DNA of 64,000 nucleotides from Bacillus sp. FJAT-22090 (GTDB lineage Bacteria; Bacillota; Bacilli; Bacillales_A; Planococcaceae). Every line of letters starts with the position of its first letter. Position 1 is the stretch's first letter. The position numbers and the translations under genes are program-made. The stretch is from positions 3,658,154 through 3,722,153 of the forward strand of contig NZ_CP012601.1 in NCBI RefSeq assembly GCF_001278755.1, written 5' to 3'. The notes beneath the pieces are model-generated. The model had not been told where the DNA came from. It saw only the letters and a program-made list of their open reading frames with translations, and ran no database searches. This document shows positions 50,869 through 60,169 of the stretch, piece by piece.

Positions 50869-51170
50869 ATCTCAGAAAATCTCGAGTGAATCTCAGAAAA
50901 TCCCGAGTGGATCTCAGAAAATCTCGGAGTATCTCAGAAATCTCGGTGGATCTCAGAAAATCTCGGTGGATCTCAGAAAATCTCGGTGGATCTCAGAAAA
51001 TCCTGGAGGTATCTCAGAAAATCTCGAGTGGATCTCAGAAAATTCTAGGGGTATCTCAGAAAATCTGGAGGTATCTCAGAAATCCCGGGGAATCTCAGTA
51101 AATCTCCTGTGTATCTCAGAAAATCATGGAGTATCTCAGAAATCCCCAGGTATCCCCGAGAATCTAAGAT
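50869..51170. repeat. Array of about 14 tandem 19-21 bp repeats, third locus
   Basis: Fourteen units, each beginning ATCTCAGAAA, with lengths of 19, 20 or 21 bp and consensus ATCTCAGAAAATCTCGAGTGG, plus a degenerate fifteenth after 51150. The first half of each unit is almost invariant, while the second half varies. Length changes of 1-2 bp shift the reading frame between units, so this is not a coding repeat. The array lies between the ppaC terminator and the DsbA-family gene. Confidence 0.9.
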
Positions 51171-57674: not shown

Positions 57675-57804
57675 AATTGTGCATGAAAGTAGTAACGTAA
57701 ACCGGTACTTAAACACCATTTTTGAAGGTGACTTTCCCACATGAAAGTTGTGGCATTCTGGCTCAAATTAAAGAATAATAGAATTAAAAGAAGAGGTGAT
57801 TCTA

Positions 57805-58125
57805 TTGTCAAACATTTACTCTGTAAAACTTTTATTTGAACATATCTCCTCACCAGAATCGATGCCCAATAAAACATTTGAAGAAACGATCAATATTGTC
57901 CGAGCGGATAAATTAGAGGACGTAGATGGATTAGTGAAGCAACACTTTAAAGACGTGACATATGCCAATGCATTTGGGGAAACCACCACTATAAAGTTAT
58001 TAATGATTCTTGATGTATTTGAACTTGTAGATAATATAGAAGAATGTTTAGAGTTTGGAGAAGTATATAGTCATCATATAATTCTGGATGAAGAAGTTTG
58101 TCTAGAACGTAACTATGGAAATTAG
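57805..58125 (+). CDS. DUF4288 protein
   Basis: A 106-residue soluble protein with the DUF4288 pattern: YSVKLLFEHIS at the start, EETINIVRADKLEDV in the middle, ANAFGETTTIKLLMILDVFELVD and EFGEVYSHHI at the end. Such proteins are small, often near toxin-immunity or regulatory loci, with unknown function. I use TTG at 57805, 6 nt after AGAGGTG. It converges on the pheromone cassette with a shared terminator. Confidence 0.75.
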   Translation: MSNIYSVKLLFEHISSPESMPNKTFEETINIVRADKLEDVDGLVKQHFKDVTYANAFGETTTIKLLMILDVFELVDNIEECLEFGEVYSHHIILDEEVCLERNYGN

Positions 58126-58126
58126 A

Positions 58127-58163
58127 AAGGGTCCAAGAGTTGATTTCTTGGGCCCTTTTTTAT
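58127..58163. terminator. Terminator between DUF4288 gene and propeptide gene
   Basis: A 12-bp stem AAGGGTCCAAGA/TCTTGGGCCCTT (one G-U), followed by TTTT on the plus strand. It touches the propeptide stop codon and may also end the minus-strand operon. Confidence 0.8.
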
Positions 58164-58453
58164 TAGATGTAAAAATTAATAGAAGTGATTTCTGGCTTAT
58201 CTTGTATTGCAAATTTATTAATAGAAGTGATTTCTGGCTTGTCTTGTATTGCAAATTTATTAATAGAAGTGATATCAGGTTTGTCTTGTATCGCAAATTT
58301 ATTAGTAGAAGTGATATCAGGTTTGTCTTGTATTGCAAGTTTATTAATAGAAGTAATATCAGGTTTATCTTGTATTGAAAGTTCTGGCCAACCTACATTA
58401 AATGTAATTAATAAACCTATTAAACAAAGTGTACCGATAATAAATTTTTTCAA
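58163..58453 (-). CDS. NprX-like secreted propeptide with five tandem pheromone units
   Basis: A 96-residue precursor. Residues 1-23 form a signal-type segment (MKKFIIGTLCLIGLLITF). Residues 25-93 are five tandem 14-residue units of the form (F/L)(A/S)IQDKP(D/E)ITS(I/T)NK. DKPDITS occurs at 29-35, 43-49 and 57-63; DKPEITS at 71-77 and 85-91. The heptapeptide shares KPDI with SKPDIVG, the mature NprX pheromone of B. thuringiensis. TTG at 58453 lies 7 nt after GGGAGG and overlaps the receptor stop as TTGA, so it is translationally coupled. Expected path: export, processing, re-import by an oligopeptide permease, binding to the receptor. That path is inference. Confidence 0.82.
   Translation of the reverse strand: MKKFIIGTLCLIGLLITFNVGWPELSIQDKPDITSINKLAIQDKPDITSTNKFAIQDKPDITSINKFAIQDKPEITSINKFAIQDKPEITSINFYI
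58175..58381 (-). repeat. 42-bp coding tandem repeat, five copies
   Basis: Five nearly identical 42-bp units inside the propeptide gene (the last one truncated after the NK position). Unit differences include third-position changes (GAT/GAC, AAA/AAG) as well as the Asp-to-Glu switch, so the copies have diverged under coding constraint and not as fresh slippage products. Confidence 0.9.
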
Positions 58454-59739
58454 GTTAGTTCCTCCCAATTAGTTACATGTGATAGTTTTAAATTATAGTT
58501 AAAACCTAACTGATAATAAATTGTTGATTGTTTGTATTGTTTTTTATCAGCTAATCTTTTTGCCAGCACTTGGCAATAAATAAAACAATATTTGTAGTCT
58601 TGTATATCCTCAAAATAGGCTAGGGCTTCTTTAAAGATTGGAATAATATTATCTTTCTCTAATAAAAGTGCTCTGTATATACTTAAATGACTTTTATAGA
58701 AAGATTTATATTCCTCAGTCAACTGATCTAGTAACTCTAATCCCTTTTCTAACCAAACTATTGCATTTTGAACATCATTTATTTTGTGATATTCCTTTAA
58801 TATTGAAACAATGGTCACTAATTTATCATTTGGATTGGTTTTTATATTTAAACTATTTTGAAAATGATGAAGTGCTTGTTTTTGATTTCCAAGAATAGAA
58901 TAACTTGCTCCTAAGTTATGTTCAATCTTTCCGTTGTATTTAGAAGAATCGATTTTTAAGCTGATTTCTTTCGCTTTTTCAAATGTAGCAATCGATTCTT
59001 TTAATACCCCAGTATCAATCTGAGCAATACCTAAAATAATTAAACATTCGATAGAACGTTCTATTAATAATTCTTGATTAAAATAGGAAAGAGCAGATTT
59101 TACATAATCGATAGCCATTATATAACGTGATTCTGACAGAAGTGACAAGCTCGATATGTAATAAAGTTCGGCCATTTCCCAGTCTTCCATACGATAGTTT
59201 TTTATTAGTGTAAAAATTTGAGAGAAAAACTCGGAAGCTTGACTGAACTGATTATTTTGATAAGCTACTATTCCTTGAATCGTATATAGATAAAATAACT
59301 GTTCGGAATCCATTTCCTTTTTAAACTCAGCTAATATAGCTAGATTGTTTCTAATGTTAATCGTTTGATCTGGTAGCATAAGCATTAATCTAGTTTCTAT
59401 TAATAGAAGTGTCAATCTATTGGGTTCGAAAGGATGACTCTCAATATAGTTATGGATATCTAGTTGTAGAACTTCTGCTTTTTGTTTATTTCTAGAGTTG
59501 ATGACTGTTTTAAATTTAGTTTTAAATTGAATTGATTTCTCTTGGTCAATTTCACTCTTTAAAGAGTCGAAGGGAATGTTCAAGCGCATAAGAATATGCT
59601 TTTGAATATCTTCACTCGGTATTACTAACCCATTTTCTATTCGACTTAAGTATGAAGGAACACAAATACCAGAAGCTAAGTATTCTTGCTTCATATTCTG
59701 TCTTTGGCGTTCTAATTTAATCAATTGTCCTATTTCCAT
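58450..59739 (-). CDS. RNPP-family (NprR-like) pheromone receptor/regulator
   Basis: A 429-residue protein, near the 423 of NprR. Residues about 1-60 form an HTH_3 domain (IGQLIKLERQRQNMKQEYLA, then CVPSYLSRIENG). The rest is a TPR superhelix: hallmarks include YYISSLSLLSESRYIMAIDYV, CLIILGIAQIDTGVLKESIATF, KIEHNLGASYSILGNQKQAL and CQVLAKRLADKKQYKQ. RNPP receptors bind a re-imported peptide in the TPR groove and switch DNA binding. I use ATG at 59739 after GAGGAGG; an upstream in-frame start at 59757 would not use this SD. Targets are not evident nearby. Confidence 0.85.
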   Translation of the reverse strand: MEIGQLIKLERQRQNMKQEYLASGICVPSYLSRIENGLVIPSEDIQKHILMRLNIPFDSLKSEIDQEKSIQFKTKFKTVINSRNKQKAEVLQLDIHNYIESHPFEPNRLTLLLIETRLMLMLPDQTINIRNNLAILAEFKKEMDSEQLFYLYTIQGIVAYQNNQFSQASEFFSQIFTLIKNYRMEDWEMAELYYISSLSLLSESRYIMAIDYVKSALSYFNQELLIERSIECLIILGIAQIDTGVLKESIATFEKAKEISLKIDSSKYNGKIEHNLGASYSILGNQKQALHHFQNSLNIKTNPNDKLVTIVSILKEYHKINDVQNAIVWLEKGLELLDQLTEEYKSFYKSHLSIYRALLLEKDNIIPIFKEALAYFEDIQDYKYCFIYCQVLAKRLADKKQYKQSTIYYQLGFNYNLKLSHVTNWEELT

Positions 59740-59860
59740 ACACAAGCACCTCCTCAATAGGACCTAGTAAGAAAAAAGAAAACCAATACAATATAAATAA
59801 TAACATAATATTATTTGGAAATCAGAAGAATTAGAGAACAGGAAAGTGCGAATAAAAAAC

Positions 59861-59933
59861 ACCCAAATAACGCCCTATTTTCATATCAACTTTCCCAAAT
59901 AGTTGTTGTGGAATTATTTGGGTTTTTAGTTAA
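59861..59933. terminator. Nested hairpins upstream of the receptor gene
   Basis: ACCCAAATAA (59861-59870) pairs perfectly with TTATTTGGGT (59924-59933). Inside it CCCAAATA (59894-59901) competes for TATTTGGG with a 23-nt loop. T-runs flank both sides (GTTTTTTATT on the minus strand, TTTTTAG on the plus strand). It could stop transcription arriving from the BmrA-like gene, or it could act as an alternative-pairing leader. The competing arms are unusual. Confidence 0.45.
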
Positions 59934-59968
59934 TACTAAAATTATAAATGTAAATGGGTGGTGAATTT

Positions 59969-60169
59969 TTGAGAAAAAATTTAAGTATCTCGATTCGCAA
60001 ACTTCTTTTTTTCTTGCTTCTTTTTTCCATCATGTGTTGGTTTCTATTAACAACTCTACCATATAACGTAGACGAACATAATCTAAATCACGATGCAACT
60101 GCTAAAAAGATGGAAGAATTTAAAACAGCGTTAGAGGTTTTCTACTCCAAAGCAAAGGAACTATGGTGA
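59969..60169 (+). CDS. 66-residue single-pass membrane protein
   Basis: A short protein with a basic N-terminus (MRKNLSISIRK), one hydrophobic segment (about residues 12-28) and a charged helical tail (KKMEEFKTALEVFYSKAKELW). TTG at 59969 follows GGTGGTGA; ATG at 59954 is in frame but has no SD. No family recognised. It is divergent from the receptor gene and convergent with the BmrA-like gene. Confidence 0.5.
   Translation: MRKNLSISIRKLLFFLLLFSIMCWFLLTTLPYNVDEHNLNHDATAKKMEEFKTALEVFYSKAKELW

Follow-up and report, generated by a model that had tools for sequence, protein, structure and literature searches.

In the NprR-NprX system of the Bacillus cereus group, the pheromone form SKPDIVG has been identified by mass spectrometry (PMC5641580), and NprR carrying its peptide is described as a DNA-binding tetramer with two DNA-binding sites (PMC4970707). 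Multi-copy pheromone precursors, those of NprR included, have been in print since 2016, 2022 and 2024 (PMC5199041, PMC9765709, PMC11343458). Duplications in some nprX genes are reported together with a duplicated Phr that was tested as an intermediate of specificity change (PMC5199041). A survey found all 17 of the long NprR propeptides examined to be repeated and counted up to six copies in the AimR, NprR, PlcR and Rap subfamilies, its section 7 naming dissimilar copies for AimR, Rap and PlcR and not for NprR (PMC9765709), and the copies of two Rap systems are described as processed and active in a report that mentions up to eight copies (PMC11343458). Dimers of the receptor AimR are reported to bind 6-bp inverted repeats 25 bp apart, an operator demonstrated by footprint and crystal (PMC6458997, PMC9232636, PMC6536502).

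The kind of array described below is already published; what is added here is an array specific to one lineage, a variable position in the pheromone core, a pair of inverted repeats and a likely target gene encoding a DUF4288 protein. Psychrobacillus, the genus of the bacterium that carries the cassette, is unmentioned among the best literature matches listed; a published table or supplement may nevertheless list this locus.

Layout of the cassette and type of the receptor

The cassette lies on the minus strand of the window, by which we mean the whole stretch of 64,000 nucleotides analysed. An HTH-TPR receptor of 429 aa, read from an ATG, is encoded at 58450..59739 and a propeptide of 96 aa, read from a TTG, at 58163..58453; the TGA stop of the former and the TTG start of the latter overlap as TTGA, and GGAGG stands seven bases 5′ of the TTG. 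The propeptide leader has KK and a hydrophobic stretch. Tandem Repeats Finder reports an array of period 42 at 58175..58377 (4.8 copies, 93% matches, score 322), in which five units of 14 residues can be read: units 1 (58340..58381), 2 (58298..58339) and 3 (58256..58297) have the core DKPDITS, and units 4 (58214..58255) and 5 (58172..58213) the core DKPEITS. The overlapping gene pair and the five units with their two cores, both claimed in a preliminary description of this DNA, are borne out by these readings.

Pfam places HTH_3 at residues 7-58 of the receptor, with TPR_12 and TPR_2 also over the cut-off, and its length falls within the 250-500 aa, with TPR motifs, expected of RRNPPA receptors. 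As in other RRNPPA systems, the adjoining, overlapping small gene encodes a putative export signal and a short kept core. A profile search seeded with six Psychrobacillus receptors matched RapH (5.2e-8, residues 129-413), Rap3T (1.1e-7, 112-413), PlcR (7.4e-6, 3-217) and NprR (4gpk; 1.5e-5, 83-380), with engineered TPR chains ranking above all four. The combination of an N-terminal HTH with a long, Rap-like TPR domain is that of the NprR subfamily; the match to NprR is weaker than that to RapH. The profile also matched PHROG 5208 (372 positions, function not named; 3.7e-26). The receptor is also 26% identical over residues 1-412 to one on the plasmid of Priestia koreensis FS-1, for which two NprR-NprX systems are reported (PMC10075063). 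By these features the receptor and propeptide are a pair of RRNPPA type, NprR-like in layout, and the sequence gives no firm placement with NprR. The cassette had been described as NprR/NprX-like, which stands for the layout.

The same genome encodes two further receptors, 31% and 21% identical to this one, each followed by a single-copy candidate propeptide. The third receptor of this genome, at L003 (C1:2346588-2350505), has a propeptide ending in TIPPPM, and its gene is arranged back to back with one for a secreted subtilase-like protein; a congener's version of that locus (L134) has IPIHPPIG three times.

Identity to the receptor is 66-73% in five named Psychrobacillus records and 49% in one from Filibacter. 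Of 19 genomes of the genus, 12 have an orthologue (at least 65% identity), counting that of the window.

A neighbouring DUF4288 gene and predicted operators

Beyond the propeptide gene, on its far side, lies a convergent gene on the plus strand (57808..58125; 105 aa from a TTG, with an in-frame GTG at 57796) whose product matches DUF4288 at 31.9 bits against a cut-off of 27. A hairpin followed by a run of T (58126..58165) separates this gene from the propeptide gene and is probably a two-way terminator: it folds at -20.8 kcal/mol on the plus strand and -15.1 on the minus, values that 0 of 200 shuffles reached on either strand, and is absent from the list of the consensus scan. The DUF4288 gene holds this place in all 12 congeners with the receptor; across the genus it is present in exactly those 12 of 19 genomes and absent from the 7 without, a co-occurrence that is not independent in so far as the 12 may form one clade. 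Within the family, 43 of 261 genomes have a DUF4288 match, 31 of them outside the genus (43 less 12); at the 18 loci examined there, no receptor match was found within about 1.5 kb on either side. That other genera have the gene without this receptor counts against the module proposed below. No paper naming DUF4288 was found in the literature searched.

Several other features of the neighbourhood were considered. ABC-transporter genes flank the window's locus and recur in the majority of the flanks retrieved, though not in every one. A divergent small ORF (59954-60169) was set aside as a target, there being no tblastn match in 20 loci and no like ORF in a further comparison, and its match to TssO was weak (0.079) and disregarded. 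A mobile origin was rejected: in all 12 congeners the DUF4288 gene has stayed beside the locus; a search of viral_contigs, which finds close relatives only, gave no confirmed relative, and nine plasmid records match the receptor at 25-29% identity. Elsewhere in the window (50869-51142), 13.5 copies of a 21-bp unit stand between pyrophosphatase-like and DsbA-like genes, named by eye; a 16-base form of this unit is absent from the 232 loci compared.

Alignment of the DNA upstream of the 12 orthologous receptors revealed two strongly kept blocks, GAAAG and CTTTC, which form the inverted repeat GAAAGT-N40/41-ACTTTC about 100 bases before the receptor start. In the window this predicted operator of the receptor operon lies at 59842..59894 (N41), and a second exact copy, at 57685..57736 (N40), precedes the DUF4288 gene. 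With up to two mismatches the repeat is found before 12 of 12 receptor orthologues and 12 of 12 DUF4288 genes. At the receptor it is exact in eight, has one mismatch in three and two in G018, where both boxes have changed together (GAAAGC/GCTTTC) and symmetry is kept. At the DUF4288 gene the spacing is N40 throughout, and the site is exact in eight genomes (the window's, G015, G010, G011, G002, G014, G006 and G012), with one mismatch in G018, G001 and G016 and two in G007.

Shuffled sets held 0.4 and 0.2 regions at this tolerance, and 0 of 200 did as well as either real set; since the receptor set itself had supplied the motif, the receptor half of this comparison is circular and only the DUF4288 set comes near to independence. 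The window held two matches against 0.17 expected, as did 2 of 100 shuffles. Counts over the whole genome were rejected as evidence for an operator because the controls were equal or higher: the N40-41 pattern occurs twice, both times at this locus, and its reversed control also twice, and the N40-43 pattern three times against four for its control.

These repeats might belong to another regulator of both genes, with the receptor not binding them at all. In favour of that reading, the spacing of 40-41 bp amounts to 4.4-4.5 helical turns and sets the boxes near opposite faces of the DNA, out of phase and unlike those of AimR. The distribution of the repeat argues the other way. Repeat, receptor and DUF4288 gene occur together in all 12 genomes, whereas at one mismatch or fewer the repeat was found upstream of 0 of 18 paralogous receptors and at 0 of 18 DUF4288 loci of other genera, one of which (L215) has it at two mismatches. 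In one further genome (G217), which has a receptor of this clade and an unlinked DUF4288 gene, a similar repeat, at N39, nonetheless precedes the receptor. A separate regulator is accordingly doubtful, and the receptor itself is the preferred candidate for reading both sites.

The five-copy array and its relatives

The units of the array differ mutually by 3 to 9 of 42 bases and the genome is a single contig, so that an assembly artefact is improbable for this one strain of the species. The receptor clade comprises 15 members, the 12 of the genus and three from other genera, and has 14 intact propeptides, of which only the window's is multi-copy. Since the other 13 have a single core, the five-copy array is, as far as these genomes go, specific to the window's lineage. 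The claim that the pheromone had been multiplied about five-fold and split into Asp and Glu forms holds against these single-copy orthologues. Ten intact congeners carry theirs at the corresponding place, which makes the array a natural experiment on copy number in signalling. The propeptide of G001 has a stop codon in its leader; at the two P. antarcticus loci of this kind (L007 and L015, G001) the receptor frame is open, and sending may be lost there with receiving kept.

A FastTree tree of 167 receptors places the window's receptor inside its clade. Repeated precursors occur in three places: the window, L134 (three copies) and a clade of a related genus of the same family (g13). The tree omits 12 loci duplicating another locus, which were also dropped from the copy counts, as well as L057, L117, L131, L182, L184 and frames outside 331-519 aa. 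Because L136 and L146, whose propeptides run off the contig end, are counted in it as single, it probably contains one change too many.

The g13 loci (L126, L129 and L136-L155, L149 being the longest) have a different HTH-TPR receptor, about 25% identical, and precursors built of tandem units that are almost the same, for example VAVQARVPEPWSTGTE. Among 22 loci examined there (46 genomes in the genus), all 20 complete precursors are repeated, with 2 to 14 copies. Other arrangements were also seen. In genus g12, two receptors stand in tandem (L063/L066, L068/L074), with a propeptide for one and none found for the other, perhaps a listener beside a signalling pair, and in another family (genus g34; L160, L162-L176) a clade of 16 receptors had no downstream propeptide by the criteria used.

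Within the core, P, I and T are invariant in the 14 relatives, one of which is the propeptide with the leader stop, and K is kept in 13 of them. Position 7 has four states (S in 11 of 14). Position 4 is E in five, K in six, S in one and P in two, and D or E in the window; the two nearest receptors in the tree have E, for which reason the D form is probably the newer. The KPDIVG-type pattern was found in 0 of 261 genomes of the family. Five core codons vary among the window's units, four silently and one by replacement; if 0.23-0.28 of changes are silent under neutrality, four silent changes in five have a probability of 0.011-0.024. Four changes were counted in the spacer, one of them silent, and the contrast between core and spacer is not significant (Fisher P 0.21). 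The sole replacement among the window's cores affects position 4, which varies more than any other in the pheromone core.

The spacer INKFAIQ had been put forward as a protease recognition element. As a unit it found no support, its halves matching the tail and the N-terminal flank of single-core orthologues, for example ELAVN-DKPEITS-IGVGK. Relatives have 5-9 further residues after their single core, and neither cleavage at the C-terminal end of the core nor a mature peptide of greater length would therefore be special to the array.

A pherotype shift in progress would explain the two forms differently: an old E form and a new D form would share the array until the receptor has gone over to the new one, and one form would in time be lost. 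The single core replacement falls where relatives have E, K, S or P, the two nearest receptors go with E, and a model of this kind has been tested for RapK2-PhrK2 (PMC5199041). On the other hand, D and E are chemically close and the two forms occur together in one species only. Receptor columns that differ between E-type and K-type species were rejected as evidence of specificity, their differences following the clade and the rows of G016 and G177, among fourteen, being empty. We regard a shift under way as unlikely. Still less probable is repeat drift of no signalling value, in which the array arose by slippage and the cell uses a single copy, most likely the last, the others being decoys or waste: 42-bp repeats do expand readily, copy number varies among species in other clades, and the internal copy of Phr105 is reported to be lost with the help of fewer proteases than the terminal one (PMC11343458), but four of the five variable core codons vary silently and both copies are reported as processed and active in the two Rap systems of the same study.

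A proposed module and its comparison with known systems

Our main reading, to which we give a probability of about two in three, is a chromosomal three-gene module of RRNPPA type, NprR-like, in which a peptide-switched receptor would act on its own operon and on the DUF4288 gene through a predicted long-spacer operator of the AimR kind. Receptor and propeptide are probably made from one message, since their genes overlap. The precursor would be exported by the Sec route, extracellular proteases would free about five pheromones from each, and an oligopeptide permease would import them; searches of the genome gave four places for subtilases and, above the cut-off, nine for oligopeptide-binding proteins, one of the latter with an internal stop. 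The peptides would then bind the TPR groove of the receptor, which through its HTH would act on both predicted operators. Five cores per precursor would raise the signal made per receptor, and the D and E forms are most likely near-equal ligands. Since the boxes stand before AT-rich promoter-like stretches, activation is somewhat favoured. Both boxes could be bound by a single dimer of long reach or by a tetramer, given that AimR dimers span 25 bp and that NprR tetramerises with its peptide.

A bolder form of this proposal is put forward tentatively, at rather less than even odds. The NprR-like receptor of the Psychrobacillus module would read boxes 40-41 bp apart and drive one DUF4288 gene and itself, which would give that family a regulator, and in one species the five-copy array would hold an old (E) and a new (D) pheromone, that is, a pherotype change inside one gene.

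The paired inverted repeats and the likely target gene were not part of the preliminary description. As predicted operators, they offer a two-promoter readout for dose, for D against E ligand and for orthologous precursors. If the main reading is true, the long-spacer mode of operator binding known for a phage receptor would extend to a bacterial module, and the DUF4288 family would gain a context.

In comparison with AimR, the locus shares two 6-bp inverted repeats (perfect in 8 of 12 receptor sites and 8 of 12 DUF4288 sites) with an unusually long spacer, predicted to be read by an HTH-TPR receptor. The spacer of AimR is 25 bp, whereas that of the exact sites here is 40 or 41 bp, and the operator is a predicted one, with another box sequence and in a bacterial module. 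Rap3T-Phr3T and Rap105-Phr105 resemble the locus in that their precursors hold non-identical (3T) or identical (105) copies; they differ in having two copies, both active by test, and Rap receptors without an HTH (PMC11343458). With NprR-NprX the cassette shares a receptor made of an HTH and a long TPR domain, a secreted propeptide encoded directly behind it, and a core with K-P-D-I. It differs in its five-copy precursor with D and E forms, in the tail behind the core and in a receptor only weakly like NprR (4gpk, 1.5e-5), and also in scope, the NprR regulon being reported to comprise at least forty-one genes (PMC4970707) and a local target being predicted here. As in the repeated RRNPPA propeptides already described, tandem pheromone copies, identical or one residue apart, lie in one precursor; what sets the present array apart is the single-copy orthologue at the corresponding place in each of ten intact congeners.
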